Source of the DNA: Deltaproteobacteria bacterium
Lineage (GTDB): Bacteria; DRYD01
DNA length: 11,094 nt
NCBI GenBank assembly: GCA_028276365.1
Contig: JAPYWL010000042.1
Span: forward strand, 1 to 11,094
Reading direction: 5' to 3'
Each line of letters begins with the position of its first letter. Positions within the stretch are counted from its first letter, which is position 1. The position numbers and the translations under genes were made by a program. Below are positions 1-11,094 of the stretch, piece after piece. The notes under the pieces were generated by a model, which was given only the letters and a program-made list of their open reading frames with translations, searched no databases and was not told the DNA's origin.

Positions 1-112
1 AATTTGGTTTATAGGGTAAGGGGTATCCGTAAGGGTTTATTGATAATTCTTTTAGTTTTTTTCTATGAGTTAATCTTGAGTCTTTTTCATCGAGTTTTAC
101 TTCATTTATCAT
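1..112 (-). CDS. lysS: Probable lysyl-tRNA synthetase, N-terminal fragment (runs off left edge)
   Basis: Only the first 37 codons lie in the window. The ATG (complement of 110-112) has a perfect AAGGAGG six bases upstream (complement of 119-125), so the start is secure. The peptide begins MINEVKLDEKDSRLTHRKK and continues with a KLKELSINPYGYPLPY segment. Class II lysyl-tRNA synthetases open with a charged helix, R-x-K-L-x-x-L, then a G-(I/V)-x-PY motif; here the Gly is Ser but the spacing and the NPY are right. The enzyme would charge tRNA-Lys in the cytoplasm. No catalytic motif is in view, so another protein with a similar short N-terminal helix is possible. It lies 310 bases downstream of trmD on the same strand with its own ribosome binding site. 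Confidence 0.55.
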   Translation of the reverse strand, partial: MINEVKLDEKDSRLTHRKKLKELSINPYGYPLPYKPN

Positions 113-118
113 AATTAA

Positions 119-125
119 CCTCCTT
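119..125 (-). promoter_or_regulatory. Shine-Dalgarno of the lysS-like gene
   Basis: The complement reads AAGGAGG, six bases before the ATG. It is among the best ribosome binding sites in the window and fixes the start of the partial gene. Confidence 0.75.
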
Positions 126-142
126 ATCAATTAGTAGTTCTT

Positions 143-158
143 ATAAAGAATTCTTTAT
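143..158. promoter_or_regulatory. 16-bp perfect palindrome upstream of the lysS-like gene
   Basis: ATAAAGAATTCTTTAT is a perfect inverted repeat without a loop, followed on the plus strand by a T-run to about 168. It lies about 30 bases upstream of the lysS-like ATG, so it could be an operator or a leader hairpin. It is entirely A/T except for the central GAATTC, and in such an AT-rich spacer it may be chance. The rest of the 113-422 spacer is AT-rich with no convincing gene, RNA or rho-independent terminator. Confidence 0.3.
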
Positions 159-422
159 TTTTTTTTTATATTCCTTTTTATTACTTAGGGAATTTTTAAA
201 AGGGTAATTCCTTAATTTAATCCACTTAAACAATTATATAAGCTATCATCAATATTATCTCTAAAGTTATATCTAAATTAAAGCTATTTTAAATAGTAGA
301 TAAAATTAATATATACTTTCTATTTGCAAAATTTATATTTTTATCTATTCTCTTACTATCTCAACCTTAACCTTTAATATTTGGTTAAAATATTTTAAAT
401 AATTACCTTTGAAAGTTATCTT

Positions 423-1256
423 TTAACTAGGAATTACATTATTTAAGATAGCATTATACAAAATTTCATCTATTTCTTTATAATTAAGGGATTTAAGGAA
501 AGGAAAGGGATAGTAAATCTTTTTTAGCTTTTTTTTAATTTGAAAATATTTATAAAATTTTATATATAGTTCAGGTTTTTTATAGATTGTTTGGGTTAAT
601 GAATTTTCTAAATTTTTTTTTATTATTTCTTTATGATTCCCTTTTATTAAGTATTTAGGGACTTCTAAATTGAAATTATTATTTAATGGATTAACTAATT
701 TATTTGGCCTTGTATATTGAGGATTTTCTAATAAAAAAGGGATATTAAATAATGAAAAACTATCTTCTATATAACTGTTTTCATCTATTACTAATTTTCT
801 TATTATAGATTCAATAATAACAAATACTGCTAATTCTCCACTACTTATAACGTAATCACCTATTGATATTTCCTCATTTATGAATCTTATTATTCTTTCA
901 TCTATCCCTTCATAATTTGGGGCTATAAATATGATTTCATTTAGTTTAGATAAATCTTTTATTATATTACTATTTAGTATTTTACCTTTTGGAGAAGGTA
1001 AGATGACATAAGGTTTTTTACATTTTTTTTTAGAATATGTTAGTGCTTTGTATAGTGGTTCAAATTTAAATAGCATTCCTTTTTTTATACCATATATATA
1101 ATCATCTACTTTTTTATGTTTATCAGAACTGAAGTCTCTTATATTAATAATTTCAACTTCTAAAATCTTTTTATTAATTGCTCGTTTTAATATTGATAAA
1201 TTTAATAAATCTTTAGTTAATTTTGGGAAAATAGTTAAAATAAAAGTTTTAAGCAT
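423..1256 (-). CDS. trmD: tRNA (guanine-N1)-methyltransferase TrmD, divergent
   Basis: TrmD uses S-adenosylmethionine to methylate N1 of G37 in tRNAs with G36, which prevents +1 frameshifting. The 277-aa protein shows the family motifs in order: N-terminal ILTIFP (residues 6-11), INIRDFSSDKHKKVDD (37-52), YEGIDERI, EISIGDYVISSGE, QYTRP, then GNHKEI and KKPEL in the C-terminal domain. These define a SPOUT methyltransferase with a trefoil knot. Two positions are unusual. The glycine-rich PYGGGxGM stretch reads IYGIKKGM, and the usual GGE of the knot motif reads SGE. The length is a little above the usual 230-260 aa. It is not beside its common partners rpsP, rimM or rplS. The Shine-Dalgarno is weak (GAGAT about 13 bases upstream), but the start matches where TrmD proteins normally begin. 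Confidence 0.9.
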   Translation of the reverse strand: MLKTFILTIFPKLTKDLLNLSILKRAINKKILEVEIINIRDFSSDKHKKVDDYIYGIKKGMLFKFEPLYKALTYSKKKCKKPYVILPSPKGKILNSNIIKDLSKLNEIIFIAPNYEGIDERIIRFINEEISIGDYVISSGELAVFVIIESIIRKLVIDENSYIEDSFSLFNIPFLLENPQYTRPNKLVNPLNNNFNLEVPKYLIKGNHKEIIKKNLENSLTQTIYKKPELYIKFYKYFQIKKKLKKIYYPFPFLKSLNYKEIDEILYNAILNNVIPS

Positions 1257-1419
1257 TTTTTTGTTTTTATCTCTTTAATAAATCACAAGGATTGTGGGAT
1301 ATTGCGGATTAAGGTTAAAAAAAATAATAAATATAGTTATCTACTAAACTAACCTATTTTCTAGCAACTTGCGTAAGTATAATCTAATTAGTTTAATTAA
1401 GTTAAATTGTGTTTTTAGT

Positions 1420-2292
1420 TTAAATTTCTAAATTTCCAGGATTTTCTCCTTTAACGATTGGTACTTTTACTGAATTTCCCCATTCAGTCCAAGAACCGTC
1501 ATAATTTTTAACTTTAGGATAGTTTAGTAAGTATTTTAATACAAACCAGGTATGAGCTGATCTTTCTCCTATTCTACAATAAGTTATTATTTCTTTATCT
1601 TCTGTTATATTAAATTTCTCTTTATAAATTTTTCTTAATTCTTCTATAGATTTAAAAGTTCCGTCTTCATTAACAGCTGTAGCCCATGGGATATTTATAG
1701 CAGTTGGTATATGACCTCCTCTTAGTGTTCCTTCTTGAGGATAATCTGGCATATGAATTAACTCACCTGTGTATTCTTTAGGGCTTCTAACGTCTATTAA
1801 TATTCCACCTTTCTTTATATGTTGTATTATTTCATCTTTGAATGCTCTTATTAGATTATCGTTTCTTTTTTTAGCTTTATAGTTAGTTTTTGGGAATTGA
1901 GGAACTTCTTTAGTTAGTGGTTTTCCTTCTTGTATCCATTTATTTCTGCCTCCGTCCATTATTTTAACTAATTCATGACCAAATAAATTAAATACCCATA
2001 AAGCATAAGCAGCCCACCAATTATTTTTATCTCCATAAAAAACTACTGTGGTATCATTTGATATTCCTTTTTCACTACATAATTTTTCAAATTGTTCTTC
2101 ATTTATATAATCTCTTTTAGCGGGGTCATTTAGATCTGTATGCCAATCTATTTTAACAGCATTAGGTATATGGCCAGTATCATATAGTAAAACATCCTCA
2201 TCTACTTCTACTATTCTGATTTTAGGGTTATTAATATTTTCTAATAGCCAATCGGTGCTCACTAATACGGGGTTTTCTAATTTTGTTATCAT
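1420..2292 (-). CDS. Thiosulfate sulfurtransferase (tandem-domain rhodanese)
   Basis: The 290-aa protein transfers sulfane sulfur from a donor such as thiosulfate to an acceptor through a cysteine persulfide. It has two rhodanese domains. The N-terminal one (about residues 8-127) has GHIPNA at 40-45 and DGG at 113-115 but no catalytic cysteine, as is normal for the family. The C-terminal one (about 150-275) has IDVRSPKEY (166-174), RGGHIPTA (191-198) and the active-site loop CRIGER with Cys239. The CRxGxR loop is the thiosulfate-type loop; mercaptopyruvate enzymes carry CGSGVT. The [11 protein letters not shown] ending (263-273) is also typical. No signal peptide is visible, so it is probably cytoplasmic. 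The complement of 2301-2313 gives a purine-rich GGGAAGGA ribosome site at good distance. It is the first gene of the minus-strand set, diverging from nuoK, with no sulfur-metabolism neighbour in view. Confidence 0.93.
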
Positions 2293-2477
2293 TTTGTTTT
2301 TCCTTCCCTTTTATTTAATTTCTTAGTAATCTCTTTATCTCTTATTCTATTTTTTTTTATTAATACCTTTTTTATAAATCTTTATTTTAAAAGAATTTTA
2401 TAGCTTATTTTTAATGGAGTTGTTTTTTAGGAAGGTTTTTTTTTATTTTTTTTGAATAACTAAAATATGAATATATT

Positions 2478-2484
2478 AGAGGGG
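2478..2484 (+). promoter_or_regulatory. Shine-Dalgarno supporting a TTG start for nuoK
   Basis: AGAGGGG lies nine bases before an in-frame TTG at 2494. The upstream ATG at 2467 has no ribosome binding site at all, so this internal site argues for the shorter protein. Confidence 0.55.
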
Positions 2485-2493
2485 CAAAATTTT

Positions 2494-2823
2494 TTGATAA
2501 TATATACAGTTTTTATTAGTTTTTTAATGATTATAGCTGGATTGGTTGGTATAGTATATAGGAGAAATTTAGTAGCTATTTTAATATCTATTGAGGTTAT
2601 ATTGAATGCAATTAATTTAGATTTTGTGTTATTTTCAAGATTGAAAGATAATATTAATTCTGTCATTGACGGACAAGTATTTGCTTTATTTAATATATTA
2701 ATAGCAGCAGTGGAAATAACAGTAGGTTTAGCTATAATCTTTGCTATAAGAAACCAACTACAAACTTCAGATATAGATAAACTTAATAAAATAAGTCCTT
2801 TAAACAATAATAATAATGATTAA
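2494..2823 (+). CDS. nuoK: NADH-quinone oxidoreductase subunit K
   Basis: NuoK is a three-helix subunit of the proton-pumping membrane arm of complex I. The protein has three hydrophobic segments and the family signatures: RRN (residues 23-25), SIEVILNAINL with Glu34, and DGQVFALF followed by AAVEITVGLAI with Glu74. The two glutamates match E. coli Glu36 and Glu72, which are needed for proton translocation. I place the start at TTG 2494 because AGAGGGG precedes it and the 109-aa product then aligns with the usual NuoK N-terminus; an ATG at 2467 would add nine residues. The tail after the last helix is polar and ends in an Asn run. Unusually, nuoJ and nuoL are absent on both sides. Either complex I genes are scattered in this genome or this is an isolated copy. 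It is divergent from the rhodanese gene. Confidence 0.88.
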   Translation: MIIYTVFISFLMIIAGLVGIVYRRNLVAILISIEVILNAINLDFVLFSRLKDNINSVIDGQVFALFNILIAAVEITVGLAIIFAIRNQLQTSDIDKLNKISPLNNNNND

Positions 2824-2932
2824 TATAGTATAGTTTTTTTTATAGTTTTTTTGGAGGAGCTAAGAAAGAATTGAAGAAAAAAAATGTAGGTTTTTATTTA
2901 TTTAAATTTTTTAATTAATAGAGGGGGTAGTT

Positions 2933-3217
2933 ATGGCTTATAGACCTTGTAAATTTAGGCATTCTCAGTTGGGGATATTTCAATGTGAAAAACATATGTA
3001 TCAGCATACTGATCAGGATCAGTATGAGGAGTTATATCAATTTTGTTTACAGAATGTTCCGGATAAATTTTGTCCTTATATAGATTTTGGGTTTGATATG
3101 TCTCAGAATCCACCAAGAATTTTTATTAATTGTACTCATCCGTATTTTGGGGGGCCGTTGAAAGCTATTGGGGATTGTCCTAATTGTCCATTCCCTGAAG
3201 GTGATTCCTTAGCTTAG
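2933..3217 (+). CDS. Small cysteine-rich protein of unknown function
   Basis: This 94-aa protein is not one I recognise. It has seven cysteines (6, 18, 38, 47, 67, 82, 85) and several histidines close to them: CKFRH, CEKH, NCTH and a final DCPNCPFP. The CxxC plus the Cys/His pairs suggest a bound metal, such as zinc or an Fe-S cluster, but that is inference. It is rich in aromatic residues and Gln, lacks a signal peptide or membrane segment, and would be cytoplasmic. AGAGGGGG seven or so bases before the ATG is a strong ribosome binding site, and codon use is like the neighbours. It lies 109 bases after nuoK and 33 bases before the DUF167 gene, so it probably shares a transcript with the latter. 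Confidence 0.82.
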   Translation: MAYRPCKFRHSQLGIFQCEKHMYQHTDQDQYEELYQFCLQNVPDKFCPYIDFGFDMSQNPPRIFINCTHPYFGGPLKAIGDCPNCPFPEGDSLA

Positions 3218-3250
3218 TTATTTTTTATTCTTTTTATTTTAGAAGTTTTT

Positions 3251-3469
3251 ATGTTAATAAAGGTAAAAGTATTCCCTAATTCTAAGGTAGAAGAAATAAT
3301 AAAGAAATCAGATGATGAATACATAGTTAAGGTAAAAGATAAAGCAGAGCAGGGAAAAGCAAACAAAAGAGTTAAGGAACTTTTAGCTAATTTTTTCTCT
3401 AAAAATCAAGACCAAATTATATTAATTAAAGGATCAAATCAGCAAAATAAAATCTTTAAAATATATTAG
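3251..3469 (+). CDS. DUF167 / YggU-family protein
   Basis: The 72-aa protein matches the small DUF167 (YggU) fold: VKVFPNSKVEEI at residues 5-16, a VKVKDKAEQGKAN core (about 26-38), a following helix KRVKELLANFF, and ILIKGSNQQNKIFKI at the end. The A-x-x-GKAN segment and the G-S-x-x-x-K segment are the family signature. Its biochemical role is not established. It is at the short end of the family (about 75-100 aa) but appears complete. The ribosome site is weak (AGAAG just upstream), and it follows the cysteine-rich gene by 33 bases, so translation may depend partly on coupling. Confidence 0.85.
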   Translation: MLIKVKVFPNSKVEEIIKKSDDEYIVKVKDKAEQGKANKRVKELLANFFSKNQDQIILIKGSNQQNKIFKIY

Positions 3470-5796: not shown

Positions 5797-6174
5797 TAAA
5801 AATAATTATACTTATATAACATTTAACTTTTTTATATAAAATTTTACTTTTTGCTAAACATTAATTAAAAAATAGCAAGCAATTATTTAAGTTTTTTAGT
5901 GAGTATTTATTTATTTTTTACTAAATATTTATAAGGAAGAAAGGGAATTAAGCTAATCTTAAATAATTATTAAATGAATTGAAAGTAAATGGGCAAAAAA
6001 AAATAAAAAAATAAAGAAAAAAGAGGAAAAGAAAGGGGTTGAAAGAATAGAAAAGGAGATAAAGAGATGGGAAAGAGCGGGGACAATGATAAGTGTAGAG
6101 TTATTTTTGTTAGTATTTTTTAGTTGGATAATATTATTGATTATAATAGGTGGTATAAGGGTCAGGAGATGAAG
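5797..6174. other. Gene-poor spacer at the left edge of the accessory island
   Basis: No convincing gene is seen. TTGCTA at 5851 and TAGCAA at 5873 can pair around a 16-base loop, but no clean T-run follows, so it is a poor terminator. From about 5990 the composition switches to purine-rich on the plus strand, as in the leader and body of the nuclease gene further on. At 6085-6121 lies a relative of the sequence found downstream of the nuclease. Confidence 0.5.
6085..6121 (+). repeat. Diverged copy of the nuclease 3' flank (left copy)
   Basis: This 37-base stretch matches 8454-8490 at 32 of 37 positions without gaps. It begins AATGATAAG and ends TTAGTATTTTTT or its variant. The right copy sits between the nuclease stop and the right array, so the left copy may mark where an earlier cassette ended. 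Confidence 0.6.
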
Positions 6175-6324
6175 ATGTTAAGGACAAAGTATATATCGCC
6201 GACGTTTAGGAATATGAGATATAAAGTATGGATAATAAACGAAGTGATAAAGAGTAAGGTAGAGCTGATATGGGGGGATAAAAATTCAGCCCATTTTTTG
6301 AATTCCCTATATCATCAATGCTAG
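6175..6324 (+). CDS. Small hypothetical ORF, possibly a remnant
   Basis: The 49-aa frame begins MLRTKYISPTFRN. AGGAG at 6164-6168 gives a plausible ribosome site six bases before ATG 6175. The frame is open upstream to 6124, after a TAG at 6121. The first part is basic and aromatic and its purine-rich codons resemble the nuclease gene; after about 6275 the composition changes. It has no family I recognise. It lies between the diverged flank copy and the left array, where the right-hand flank has no counterpart, so it may be a fragment of an inserted or decayed gene. Confidence 0.25.
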   Translation: MLRTKYISPTFRNMRYKVWIINEVIKSKVELIWGDKNSAHFLNSLYHQC

Positions 6325-6360
6325 CTACTTTTGAACCTAATTTAAGCTAATTAAAATTTA

Positions 6361-6800
6361 AATCAATTGAAATTAATTGAAACTAATTGAACTCAAAAGA
6401 AATCAAAAGAACCCAAAAGAACCCAATGGAACCCAATAGAACCCAATTGAAACTAATTGAAACTAATTGAAACCAATTGAAATCAATTGAAATTAATTGA
6501 AATCAAATGAAACCAAATGAATTCAAATGAACCCAAATGAACCCAATTGAACTCAATTGAACCCAATAGAATCCAATAGAATCCAATAGAATCCAATTGA
6601 ATCCAATTGAACCCAATTGAAACTAATTGAAACTAATTGAAACCAATTGAAATCAATTGAAATTAATTGAAATTAATTGAAATCAAATGAAACCAAATGA
6701 AACCAATTAAAACCAATTGAATCTAATTGAAACTAATTGAAGCCAAGAAAAAACAAGAGAAAACAAAAGGAAACAAAAGGAAAGAAAAGGAAATAAAAGG
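6361..6800 (+). repeat. Left tandem array of a 10-bp AATT-centred unit
   Basis: About 44 consecutive 10-bp units with consensus AANCAATTGA run without a single indel. The last six drift into purine-rich forms such as AAACAAAAGG. Common variants are AACTAATTGA, ACCCAATAGA and AATCAAATGA. An internal higher-order copy is visible: 6441-6500 is repeated exactly at 6611-6670. The unit has no spacers, so this is not CRISPR. One AATT tract per helical turn predicts strong intrinsic DNA curvature. The array ends in the nuclease leader. Confidence 0.92.
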
Positions 6801-6827
6801 AAAAAGAGAAGAAAAAAGGGAATAAAA
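6785..6827 (+). repeat. Purine-rich nuclease leader, left copy of a ~43-bp direct repeat
   Basis: Positions 6785-6819 are identical to 8951-8985, and after a one-base indel the match continues for eight more bases. The repeat sits between the array and the start of the nuclease gene, about 30 bases before the ATG. Confidence 0.85.
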
Positions 6828-6859
6828 AAAGGGAAAGAAATAAAGAGGAGAAAAAGAGG

Positions 6860-8392
6860 ATGAAGAAGTTATTACCAATAGGAATAAGCGATTTTAAGAA
6901 ACTAAGAGAAGTAGGGTATGTATATGTAGATAAGACGGAGTATATATATAGGTTAGTAAAAGAGGGATCAGGATATTATTTTTTAAGTCGTCCAAGACGC
7001 TTTGGAAAATCATTATTACTATCAACAATAGAGTATTTATTTAAAGGAGAAAGGGAATTATATAAGGGATTATATATAGAAGATAAGTGGGAATGGGGAG
7101 AAAGTTATCCAGTAATAAGAATAGATTTTGCAAAAGATATAGTAAAAAAAGAGGACTATAAAAGAAGAGTAATACAAGAGTTGGAAAAGAACTATATAAA
7201 TAATGAAATAGAACAAAGAATAGAAAAAGAGGAAGATGAAGTGGGATTATTTGAAAAGCTAATAATATCTATTTACAAGAGATATTCAAAACAAGTAGTG
7301 ATATTAGTAGATGAATATGATAAACCGATATTAGATGTAATAGAGGATAAAAAGGAAGCAGAGGAAGTAAGAAAAGAGCTAAAAGCATTGTATTCAGTCT
7401 TAAAAGGATTAGATAGGTATATAAAGTTTGTGTTAATAACGGGAGTGAGCAAATTTTCAAAGGTATCATTATTTAGTGGATTAAATCAGTTAGAAGATAT
7501 ATCGTTAAGCAAAGAATACGGGAATATATGTGGATATACACAAGAGGAGTTAGAGAAAAATTTTAAGGAGTATTTAGAAGGAGTGGATTTAGAGGAGGTA
7601 AGGGAATGGTATAATGGATATAATTTTTTAGGAGAAAAGGTGTATAATCCGTTTGATATATTGTTATATTTAAGGAATAGGGAATTGGATAATTATTGGT
7701 ATGAAAGTGGAAAGACAGAATTTTTATTCAAGTTAATAAAGACAAGAGAATATAAATTAGGGTATTTAGAGAAGGAATATTATACAAAAGAGATATTAGA
7801 GAAGTTTGACATAGAGTATATAAGTATAGAAGCACTAATGTATCAAACGGGATATCTAACGATAAAAGAGACAAAGAGGATAGAGAATGAGAGAGTATAT
7901 GTGTTAGGATATCCGAATAGAGAGGTAAGACAATCATTTAATAGGGAGTTATTGTATTATATAACGGGGGAATATCAAAGTGATAGGACATCAAAATTGA
8001 AGATGGCATTAATAGAAGAGGATATGGAGGAAATAAGGAGGCAGATAGAGATATTTTTGGAAACAATAAGTTATGAGGTTATGAAAAATGAGAATGTGTA
8101 TCAAGCTGCGATATACGGGTTAATGTATGGGATGGGATATGAAGTGGAGATAGAAGATAGGACAATAAAGGGTAGGATAGATCTAACGTTGATGATAAAT
8201 AGGAAAAAGGTATATATAATAGAGCTAAAGTTGATAGAAAGGGAGGAGGAGAAAGGGAAAGCGATAAAGCAGATAGAAGAGAGGGAGTATTATAAGAAGT
8301 ATATGAATTATGATAAGATATATATAGTAGGGATAGAGATAGATAGGAATAAAAAGAGGATAGAGAATTATGAGTATAAGAGGGTAAAATAG
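6860..8392 (+). CDS. AAA-ATPase-like protein with C-terminal PD-(D/E)XK nuclease domain
   Basis: The 510-aa protein belongs to the AAA-ATPase-like (PF09820) plus PDDEXK_9 (PF08011) family, which often occurs in many copies per genome. The N-terminus LPIGISDFKKLRE and YVDKT (residues 22-26) are typical. The nucleotide-binding loop is RPRRFGKS (44-51) and the Walker B is VILVDEYDKPI (147-157). The FVLITGVSKFSKVSLFSGLN block, a CGYTQEEL and a WYNGYNF motif follow. The nuclease motif at the C-terminus is GRIDLTLM (438-445) with Asp441, then IIELKL with Glu455 and Lys457. All key residues are present and the length is normal, so it looks intact. GAGGAG nine bases before ATG 6860 supports the start. 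The coding strand is strongly purine-rich, unlike trmD or nuoK, and the gene is enclosed by tandem arrays. Its physiological role is unproven; defence or selfish behaviour is inference. Confidence 0.92.
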   Translation: MKKLLPIGISDFKKLREVGYVYVDKTEYIYRLVKEGSGYYFLSRPRRFGKSLLLSTIEYLFKGERELYKGLYIEDKWEWGESYPVIRIDFAKDIVKKEDYKRRVIQELEKNYINNEIEQRIEKEEDEVGLFEKLIISIYKRYSKQVVILVDEYDKPILDVIEDKKEAEEVRKELKALYSVLKGLDRYIKFVLITGVSKFSKVSLFSGLNQLEDISLSKEYGNICGYTQEELEKNFKEYLEGVDLEEVREWYNGYNFLGEKVYNPFDILLYLRNRELDNYWYESGKTEFLFKLIKTREYKLGYLEKEYYTKEILEKFDIEYISIEALMYQTGYLTIKETKRIENERVYVLGYPNREVRQSFNRELLYYITGEYQSDRTSKLKMALIEEDMEEIRRQIEIFLETISYEVMKNENVYQAAIYGLMYGMGYEVEIEDRTIKGRIDLTLMINRKKVYIIELKLIEREEEKGKAIKQIEEREYYKKYMNYDKIYIVGIEIDRNKKRIENYEYKRVK

Positions 8393-8401
8393 GTTTAATA
8401 G

Positions 8402-8436
8402 TTTTGAGAATGTTTTATTTTTTTTGAAAATGTTTT
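8402..8436 (+). repeat. Short direct repeat after the nuclease gene
   Basis: TTTTGAGAATGTTTT at 8402-8416 recurs as TTTTGAAAATGTTTT at 8422-8436, 14 of 15 identical and 20 bp apart. It starts ten bases after the nuclease stop codon. No hairpin terminator is visible; the T-runs here may still aid termination. Confidence 0.4.
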
Positions 8437-8453
8437 GGTTATTTTAAGGGAAT

Positions 8454-8490
8454 AATGATAAGGTTAGCGTAATTTTTGCTAGTATTTTTT
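8454..8490 (+). repeat. Nuclease 3' flank sequence, right copy
   Basis: It matches 6085-6121 at 32 of 37 positions. It links the end of the nuclease gene to the right array. No reading frame is shared between the two copies, so the conservation is at DNA level. Confidence 0.6.
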
Positions 8491-8500
8491 TTAAGAGAAA

Positions 8501-8970
8501 TAAAGGGAAGACAAAGGAAAGAATAAGAAAAAAAAGGAAAACAAAGGGAAAAAAATGAAATAAAATGAAACCAAAAGGAACCAAAGGAAACCAAAGGAAA
8601 CCAATTGAAACCAATAGAAGCCAATTGAAACCAGTTGAAGCCAAAAGAAACCAAAAGAAGCCAAATGAAATAAATTGAAACCAATTGAAATCAATTGAAA
8701 CCAATTGAAACTAAATGAAACTAAATGAAACTAATTGAAACTAATTGAAAGTAATTGAAACTAATTAAAATCAATTGAAATCAATTGACGTCAATTGAGG
8801 TCAATTGAAGTTAAATGAAGTCAATTGGAGTTAATTAAAGGCCTTTGAAATCAATTGAAGCCAATTGAAGCCAATTGAAGTCAATTGAAGTCAATTGAAG
8901 TCAAATGAAGCCAAAGGAAACCAAAGGAAACCAATAGGAAGTAAAAAAACAAAAGGAAATAAAAGGAAAA
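8501..8970 (+). repeat. Right tandem array of the same 10-bp AATT-centred unit
   Basis: About 45 units of 10 bp, consensus NCAATTGAAN, run in the same orientation as the left array. The first six or seven are purine-rich (for example ACAAAGGAAA), the middle is canonical, and the last return to AAAGGAAA-like forms. A cluster near 8787-8850 contains variants with GACGT, GAGG and GGAG not seen in the left array, so the two arrays are related but not recent copies. Long open frames on the minus strand here are by-products of the repeat. The array runs into the duplicated purine-rich leader. Confidence 0.92.
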
Positions 8971-8993
8971 AGAGAAGAAAAAAGGAATAAAAA
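8951..8993 (+). repeat. Purine-rich leader, right copy without a nuclease gene
   Basis: The stretch is the partner of 6785-6827. In the left copy it precedes a complete nuclease gene with its ribosome site; here it stops at about 8993 and runs into ATTGGTATATAT with no nuclease gene following. This looks like the front end of a second cassette whose gene was lost or never duplicated. Confidence 0.8.
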
Positions 8994-9165
8994 TTGGTAT
9001 ATATAATATTAATCTGTTTATTTTTAAAGATAAAACTTCTTTATTAACTTCTTTCAATTCCTCTATGGGTAAGCTAAACAGGAGGATGTATATTTACTCC
9101 AATACAATAATTAGGTAAAAAAATAAAAAATCCTTCATAATAAAAAAACTGTTAATGTGAAATAG

Positions 9166-9504
9166 GCTAATTTTTCTGGTATTATTTCATTAATTGTAGC
9201 TTTATATTTTGATAGAAACAAGCTTGTTATAATAGAGGAGATAGAAAGAAATATTCATCCTTCTCTTATTTCCTATATAATTAATATGATAAAAGGAGAT
9301 ATAAAAGATAAACAAGTTATTATAACTACTCATAGTCCAGAAGTTTTAAAATATAGTGAATTAGATAATATTTTCTTTGTATCAAGGGATAAGGAAGGTT
9401 TTTCTGATATTTATAAACCTGCAGATAAAGAAACACTTAAGATTTTTTTACAAAATAAAATCGGTATCGATGAACTCTATGTCCAAAATCTAATTTATTT
9501 CTGA
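9166..9504 (+). pseudogene. C-terminal remnant of an AAA_21-type ATPase
   Basis: The open stretch encodes about 112 residues that match the end of AAA_21-type (SMC/OLD-like) ATPases: FSGIISLIVALYF, the Walker B block VIIEEIERNIHP, then VIITTHSPEVL with the switch histidine, and a natural-looking C-terminus KIGIDELYVQNLIYF. The Walker A half, the larger N-terminal part of a protein normally about 350-450 aa, is absent. Upstream in this frame are TAG at 9163 and TAA at 9124. Frame 2 from about 8993 to 9116 holds an open KDKTSLLTSFNSSMGKL segment that could be more of the same decayed gene. The ATG at 9286 has no ribosome site, so expression is unlikely. The break lies close to the right edge of the nuclease cassette, suggesting that the cassette or a deletion truncated it. 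Confidence 0.75.
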
Positions 9505-9644: not shown

Positions 9645-11094
9645 TTGTTAATTGGTTTATTTATAGGTTTTTATTTAGGTTATTTAAAGGCATTTAGGGA
9701 TAATCAACTAAAGTTAAAAGAGAATAATTCTAATATTATTGATTTAAACTCTCAATTAGTTGAATTAAGGGCAAGGTATGAGCAAATGGAAAAAACAAAT
9801 CAGTTATTAGAAAAAGAAAGGGAGAAAATCCTACAAAAAAGGGAAGAAGAAATTAATCAGATTATAGATGGATTTAGAAAATATTTAAGTGATATTACTG
9901 AGAGAAATATTAAATTGGATGAGGAAAAAGAAAAGAGGATTTTAGAGAAAATAGAAAATTTCATTAGAATTTTTGAAGCACAGCAAGAGAGTAATAAAAA
10001 TTTTTTGTTAAAGCAGGAGGAATTAGATAGGAAAAGAGATGAACTACTAAAAGAAATAAAAGAATCAACAATAAAATCTGATGAAGAAAAAGAAAAAAGG
10101 ATACAGATGATATTGGAAAAAAGTGAAAAATTTTCTGAAGAACAAAGTAAGAACATAAGTGAATTTCTAAAAGAACAGGATAAATATAGGCAGGAAATAG
10201 AAAACAAAAGAGATGAGATATTAAACAAAATAATGGATGAAGTGAGAAAAAATGAAGAAATATTAACCAAAAAAATGAGAGAACAATTGGATTATTTTAT
10301 TGAATTACTTAAAAAACAAGATCAATCTACTCAAGATTTCTTGTTAAATCAAGGAAAATTATTGAGTGAAATTGAAAAAAGATGGTATGCTCAAATACAG
10401 GATATGAAGAAGTCTGTGGAAAAATTTACTGCTTCTTTTTTAGGTACTAAAACGAGGGGAGAAATGGGAGAGAAGCTTTTGGAAAATATCTTACTTAACA
10501 GTATTAAATCAGGAGTAGTAATAAAAAATTTAAAAACAAGTAATGGAGGAGTTATTGAGTTTGCTTGGGATTTAGGAGATGGAAAATATATACCTATTGA
10601 TTGTAAGTTTCCTAATATTTACGAATCTTTACTAAAATATAATGAAAGTAATGAAAACAAAAATGAAATAAAAAAAGAGATAGATAAACTAAAAGATAGA
10701 ATTAAGGAAGTCAAAAAATATCAAAATTTGGATAATACCATAGATTATTGTATTGTTGTCTTACCTGATACTATTATTGAATTATTTCCTGAGTTAATTC
10801 ATTTTGGAAAGGAAAATAATGTGTGGGTTTGTGGATATAGGGATGTTGTTTTTGTTGCTTCTTTTTTACATAAAAGATATGTAGATTTAAAAAAACAAGG
10901 TGAAATTGGAGATTACAAAATGATTATTGAAAAATTACTTAAAATAGTGGATAATATTCAAAAAGAAACTGATAGTATATCTAAAGCTATTAACTCTATT
11001 CAAAAATCTAATGAGAGTATTCGTAAGGAGATCCTTAAATCTAAAAACCTACAAAATTTTGATAATAATTCAAGTAATAATTTTAATGATAATC
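9645..11094 (+). CDS. rmuC: RmuC-family DNA recombination protein (runs off right edge)
   Basis: RmuC proteins are membrane-anchored coiled-coil proteins with a nuclease-like core that limit recombination at inverted repeats. Here 483 residues are visible and no stop is reached. The order is: membrane segment LIGLFIGFYLGYL at the N-terminus, a long charged coiled coil (about 20-260, rich in Lys/Glu), then the conserved core. The core has RGEMGEKLLENIL from Arg271, IPIDCKFPNIYESL with Asp319 and Lys321 (family IDsKfP), VVLPDTI and VFVASFL. A second coiled region and an Asn-rich tail end the visible part. I chose TTG 9645 because AGAGGT precedes it; ATG 9627 would add six residues (MLEVIF). The minus-strand open frame inside is a shadow. 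The gene follows the ATPase remnant by 140 bases and probably has its own promoter. Confidence 0.85.
   Translation, partial: MLIGLFIGFYLGYLKAFRDNQLKLKENNSNIIDLNSQLVELRARYEQMEKTNQLLEKEREKILQKREEEINQIIDGFRKYLSDITERNIKLDEEKEKRILEKIENFIRIFEAQQESNKNFLLKQEELDRKRDELLKEIKESTIKSDEEKEKRIQMILEKSEKFSEEQSKNISEFLKEQDKYRQEIENKRDEILNKIMDEVRKNEEILTKKMREQLDYFIELLKKQDQSTQDFLLNQGKLLSEIEKRWYAQIQDMKKSVEKFTASFLGTKTRGEMGEKLLENILLNSIKSGVVIKNLKTSNGGVIEFAWDLGDGKYIPIDCKFPNIYESLLKYNESNENKNEIKKEIDKLKDRIKEVKKYQNLDNTIDYCIVVLPDTIIELFPELIHFGKENNVWVCGYRDVVFVASFLHKRYVDLKKQGEIGDYKMIIEKLLKIVDNIQKETDSISKAINSIQKSNESIRKEILKSKNLQNFDNNSSNNFNDN

Follow-up and report, generated by a model that had tools for sequence, protein, structure and literature searches.

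Why should a predicted nuclease gene stand between two long tandem arrays whose units are nearly all exactly 10 bp long? The question is raised by an 11,094-bp stretch of deltaproteobacterial DNA (the window), in which a preliminary description had seen two helically phased arrays enclosing the gene and had taken their constant period as a sign of selection on DNA shape, acting through strong curvature, nucleoid-protein binding or a structured recombination substrate. The features on which our analysis bears are collected in Table 1.

Arrays and nuclease gene in the window

TRF reported a period of 10 at 6355-6741 (38.7 copies, 1% indels) and again at 8566-8935 (37 copies, 0% indels). Identity at a lag of 10 was 0.87 in array 1 and 0.82 in array 2; at lags that are not multiples of 10 its mean was 0.29 and its maximum 0.51 and 0.47, respectively. 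When the phase was tracked from unit to unit, 42 of the 43 steps of array 1 measured 10 bp and one measured 11, and 40 of the 41 steps of array 2 measured 10 bp and one measured 9. The near-absence of indels that had been reported is thus borne out, and so is a size above 40 units per array once the degenerate edges are counted (44 and 42 units, of which 39 and 37 are clean). An AATT core is present in 25 of 43 units and in 23 of 41, for which "most" is a fair word, not a strong one. As also described, the two arrays have the same orientation relative to the gene, both lying with it on the + strand. They consist of head-to-tail units of constant period, as minisatellites (VNTRs) do.

Table 1. 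Coordinates of the features surrounding the nuclease gene in the window.
Feature	Position	Strand	Remarks
Remnant of module ORF2 (putatively minor-pilin-like)	6005..6300	+	one stop codon, 3' end missing
Array 1	6355..6744	+	39 units, consensus YAAWDGAANY, period 10, internal duplication
Purine-rich leader	6745..6859	+	degenerate units (AAAAGGAAAN), then polypurine tract, then likely ribosome-binding site AGAGGAG
AAA-ATPase_like + PDDEXK_9 (DUF1703) gene	6860..8392	+	510 aa, intact
Short remnant of ORF2 5' end, after the nuclease gene	8454..8492	+	position expected for the end of a module
Purine-rich, degenerate left edge of array 2	8493..8569	+	
Array 2	8570..8939	+	37 units, period 10
Truncated copy of the nuclease leader	8940..8993	+	90% to 6768-6828; no family gene after it

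The product of the gene scored 210.7 bits with Pfam PF09820 (cut-off 26.1) and, at its C terminus, 57.7 bits with PDDEXK_9 (PF08011, cut-off 25.5). It holds a Walker A motif (RPRRFGKS), a Walker B motif (LVDEYDKP) and a nuclease motif (GRIDL...IELK) with the catalytic D, E and K. Judged by these domains and motifs, the gene is a member of the DUF1703 family of predicted nucleases (PF09820 + PF08011). A PDB sequence search returned no solved relative, and no known defence family or NCBI family was found for it.

On the 5' side of array 1, the ORF2 remnant matches the ORF2 of contig C52 at 63% of amino acids, and the same remnant in contig C16 at 84% at the DNA level. About 33 of the 39 bases of the short remnant that follows the nuclease gene match the C16 remnant in a by-eye comparison. 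Past array 2, the match to the nuclease leader breaks off at 8993. Because a leader copy follows the array and then stops, we regard array 2 as the leader of a next gene that is missing. To judge from this junction, the tandem module had a second copy that has decayed, and array 2 is what remains of its leader; as such it forms no border, and the idea that a pair of arrays encloses the gene does not hold. The window is best read as two decayed modules with one gene left between two arrays, and not as a functional border pair.

Directly past array 2, the − strand carries a solo CRISPR-type repeat (GTTTAGCTTACCCATAGAGGAATTGAAAG, 9051-9079) with a leader-like remnant. Contigs C59, C72 and C84 contain long arrays of this same repeat; C1, C66, C71 and C104 have a single copy or a few copies of it, at distances of 83-662 bp from family genes. 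The similarity between its 3' end (AATTGAAAG) and the unit of the 10-bp arrays may be fortuitous. CRISPR-type repeats (GTTTTCAGCTTACCTATGAGGAATGAAAAC) are likewise found no more than a few hundred bases from DUF1703 genes or fragments in G003 (loci L128 and L132) and G005 (locus L127), two other genomes of the same taxonomic family. Further on, positions 9211-9504 encode a C-terminal AAA ATPase fragment (AAA_21; AbiLi- and HEC-01A-like in PADLOC), apparently from a truncated defence gene.

Distribution of the arrays and of the gene family

A four-unit pattern was searched for, with up to two mismatches, in the whole assembly (G000; 1.59 Mb, 124 contigs, 87% complete), an AT-rich genome from an uncultured bacterium. 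It gave 361 matches, 273 forward and 88 reverse, and a recount on the contigs with family genes or arrays returned exactly 273 and 88. Within the assembly the motif occurs only in nine contigs: C1, which holds the two arrays of the window, C2, C16, C24, C52, C58, C62, C74 and C93. A degenerate version of the array precedes the gene cluster of C73. The arrays of C52 and C58 reach, or nearly reach, the ends of their contigs. Eight motif arrays have their 3' end inside a contig, and seven of them (array 1 of C1 and those of C2, C16, C24, C62, C74 and C93) lead through a purine-rich leader directly into a family gene on the same strand; array 2 of the window is the exception. Leaders like that at 6745..6859 precede the other array-linked genes. 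Since seven of these eight arrays directly precede a family gene, and the leader of array 2 is cut short, the arrays are to be seen as 5' leaders rather than as paired borders.

The preliminary description had tied the arrays to AAA-ATPase_like/PDDEXK_9 genes, and had named arrays widespread in the genome away from such genes as the observation that would speak against it. All 361 matches lay in arrays beside family genes or at contig ends, so the link to the genes survives.

With up to one mismatch, the motif had no match in 58 other genomes, five of them from the same genus or family and 53 others. The relatives G001, G002, G003 and G005 carry the nuclease gene family, and no period-10 signal was seen upstream of those of their + strand family genes that the comparison covered. 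Because the relatives have the genes without the motif, the array is probably young and not needed by the family; it appears to be lineage-specific and dispensable for these genes. A wider origin was considered and rejected, as the motif in 66 contigs of other genomes mostly represents AATTG pentamer runs or short arrays; no family gene was found beside it within the stretches fetched from these contigs. A viral origin was likewise rejected, no viral contig with the motif being found. Among the genomes searched, the arrays occur in this one only, in one orientation, directly 5' of family genes.

The nuclease family had been described as multi-copy, and this is amply the case here, with 29 full-length genes among 32 PF09820 matches in the assembly. 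Array-linked genes hold the Walker and nuclease motifs, the Walker B pattern being unmatched in that of C93. The genes are mosaic, the best-matching paralog switching along a gene at 84-99% identity. dN/dS was 0.11-0.21 in eight of the nine pairs tested and 0.31 in the ninth; the family genes are maintained under purifying selection. At loci L155-L161 of G001, at least six family copies of about 78-94% identity have an internal TAG and are possibly split or decaying genes.

A DUF1703 expansion with the same two domains (PF09820 + PF08011) and frequent recombination between paralogs has been reported in Cardinium cCpun (PMC6387759). Common to the two cases are this architecture, a small genome with some 25-30 paralogs that have diverged, and the frequent recombination. 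They differ in that the available text of that report describes no repeat arrays, whereas here a 10-bp array and a purine leader precede a subset of the genes (PMC6387759).

Modules, junctions and the purine-loaded strand

A module of about 4.9 kb is repeated in tandem in contig C24, which holds two copies in part; the module runs from the array through the nuclease gene and the minor-pilin-like ORF2 to a convergent lipoprotein-like gene on the other strand; further pieces of it lie in C52 and C62. In C52, ORF2 occupies the third place in a pilin-like operon, the first gene of which scores above the Pfam N_methyl cut-off. A Pfam search with ORF2 itself gave no significant match, and we infer its minor-pilin-like character from its place in the operon and its hydrophobic start.

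Rearrangement junctions were seen in several arrays. The C2 array has become fused with a nuclease gene at the 3' end of the latter, and contains an insert of about 235 bp that is absent from its close relative in C24. The arrays of C62 and C93 each enclose a C52 pilin gene fragment (91-100% identity). C1 and C16 carry two versions of one locus. TrmD, rhodanese, NuoK and their neighbours match there at 92-95% and the shared RmuC end at 99%, but identity between the nucleases is just 77-82%, and the two have different arrays. The arrays of both pairs, C1/C16 and C2/C24, differ in length and make-up, as either alleles or paralogs. Judging from the junctions in C2, C62 and C93 and from the different genes at C1/C16, a set that holds no direct before/after pair, some arrays look like recombination substrates. 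The earlier proposal of a structured recombination substrate is thereby upheld in spirit; the step from constant period to selection on shape is not.

Window positions 1-3468 and 10926-11094 are present twice in the bin, the second time in C16 (L107 3865-8404 and 11992-12160), at 92-99% identity; the shared genes include a DUF167-like one. C1 and C16 may represent two strains in one bin or a segmental duplication, that is, paralogous segments.

At fourfold-degenerate sites the array-linked nuclease genes are 90-95% purine, compared with values down to 28% in other paralogs of the same genome and a mean of 0.41 in 145 other ORFs. This loading is seen at window 6860-8392 and in C24, C52, C62, C73 and C93 (L109, L111, L113, L116 and L119). 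The convergent lipoprotein gene, on the opposite strand, is 86-90% pyrimidine at its fourfold sites. Seen along one DNA strand, this is the mirror image of the nuclease genes; the bias is accordingly a property of the strand, and a simple codon preference is ruled out. Of 16 purine-class genes, 8 have an array (the degenerate one of C73 included), as against none of 13 others (P=0.003). The array is not the cause of the bias: in the same-genus genome G001, purine-rich nuclease genes at which no arrays were found reach 0.94.

Origin of the 10-bp period and role of the arrays

The case for selection on shape had rested on the premise that slippage alone would accept any change of unit length. 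Neighbouring units are more alike than units in shuffled order (8.68 vs 7.71 of 10 positions in array 1, 8.22 vs 7.20 in array 2; P<=0.0002), which points to local duplication, and array 1 contains a duplication at a distance of 170 bp (6445-6524 matches 6615-6694 at 75 of 80 positions). Units are homogeneous in mid-array and degenerate toward the edges. Slippage or unequal exchange by whole units conserves unit length, and would therefore keep the period at 10 without selection. Since the unit is the same in all arrays, the period they have in common counts as a single inherited case, not as many independent ones. Off-phase units are tolerated, since in C24 units of 9 bp have been multiplied along with those of 10. 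We estimated at least 451 substitution events and 23 distinct odd-length units in the arrays, counts that are rough because events linked by duplication and exchange are not independent and because units of 10 bp are favoured by the segmentation. The noncoding flanks of C1 and C16 differ by 60 substitutions and 7 length changes, a ratio from which that of the arrays is not significantly different (P=0.08). The step from constant period to selection for shape is not supported.

The best explanation, which we hold to be somewhat better than an even bet, is that a minisatellite specific to this lineage makes up the arrays, serves a subset of DUF1703 genes as their 5' leader and provides shared homology for recombination between paralogs. 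Starting in the purine-rich leader, the array would have grown by whole 10-bp units, through slippage or unequal exchange, a process that would by itself hold the period at 10; it would travel with the nuclease gene as part of the duplicated module. The copies would then have hundreds of bases of homology in common, a putative landing tract for recombination 5' of the gene that may help the family to duplicate and to exchange segments; in the window, the decay of two modules would have left one gene between two arrays. Even if only in a passive way, the arrays probably supply homology that the copies have in common on the 5' side of the genes. They are not required, since many copies without arrays also recombine and cluster (in the interior of the C73 cluster, in C48 and C104 and in the relatives). 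As is generally known of bacterial minisatellites, the units are short and head-to-tail, with local homogenisation and degenerate edges; these arrays differ from them in occupying about ten places beside one gene family, with roughly 25-84 units, in one genome.

A serious rival, to which we give perhaps one chance in a handful or slightly better, is the neutral version of this account, by which the arrays have no role and simply result from replication slippage in the polypurine leader and from tandem module duplication. Their restriction to one lineage, their degenerate edges and local duplications and their flank-like balance of substitutions and length changes all agree with it; their persistence, in at least seven places, in front of genes that are intact and under selection does not. 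Nor does the uneven variation within units, where positions 2, 3 and 6-8 vary about 3.5-fold less than the rest (chi-square P about 1e-29). Plain slippage with uniform mutation would not produce this pattern, which counts against the minisatellite explanation as well, and strand-biased mutation or constraint must add to slippage in shaping the units. The five positions are the purine positions, so the unevenness may reflect the strand-wide purine bias rather than a binding motif.

Conserved YAA and GAA positions alongside variable positions 4-5 and 9-10, a step of exactly 10 bp in 519 of the 546 steps of all arrays in the genome (27 differ), and the placement directly 5' of genes could also reflect helically phased DNA under selection, either curved or presenting one face to a regulator or nucleoid protein with control over the nuclease gene downstream. 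We consider this quite unlikely. A period of exactly 10 bp rotates the bend slowly and is a poor one for net bending. Under a wedge model, and relative to dinucleotide shuffles, the predicted curvature of array 2 is modestly raised (z=4.1), whereas that of array 1 is not markedly so (z=1.3) and the centre of the C58 array, the most homogeneous one, is predicted to be low; the strong curvature that had been proposed thus finds little support in the calculation, with which a binding array on one face of the helix may still be compatible. A 10.5-bp version has an end-to-end ratio of 0.32, against 0.85 at 10 bp, and thus more predicted net bending, so that the argument for shape from modelled curvature is weak. 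Moreover, the relatives keep the genes without the motif, and half of the purine-class genes have no array. In prokaryotic DNA, phased A-tracts give a periodic signal at 10-11 bp (PMC3940949). The likeness lies in A/T runs spaced about one helical turn apart; that signal is genome-wide and statistical, whereas here we deal with a discrete satellite of exactly 10 bp and weak predicted curvature.

That array and nuclease together make a mobile element bounded by the arrays seems highly improbable. In its favour, fragments of the module turn up at several loci, the gene family has many copies, and an array stands at the edge of the segment that differs between C1 and C16. The arrays are nevertheless direct, one per module on the 5' side, and not inverted ends; the module genes tested by Pfam include no transposase or integrase, no viral contig has the motif, and C24 is explained by tandem duplication. 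We rejected the mobile element on the orientation of the arrays and the tandem-duplication reading of C24.

For the minisatellite leader that we prefer, the trypanosome VSG genes offer a parallel, 70-bp repeats lying upstream of them (PMC4858185). In both systems tandem repeats are placed 5' of members of a large recombining family, here of a subset of variable genes only. The unit here is 10 bp, the host is a bacterium, no expression-site switching is known, and the analogy is one of working and not of descent.

The preliminary description saw a real, gene-specific structure from which its argument about shape does not follow: an exact 10-bp period can come from unit-wise expansion, and alone is no proof of selection for shape. 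Of all the features, the strand-wide purine loading seems the most promising for further work. It is very doubtful that array, polypurine leader and purine loading form a single cis-acting mechanism of recombination or mutation in a self-diversifying bacterial gene family; if they did, a tract 5' of a cassette would direct strand-specific recombination or copying, and its trace would be the purine content of that strand's silent sites, which reaches 95%. Expansions of DUF1703 genes occur in several small genomes. A repeat devoted to a subset of these genes and placed in front of them, together with mosaic paralogs and dispersed modules, may offer a handle on how the family duplicates and recombines.
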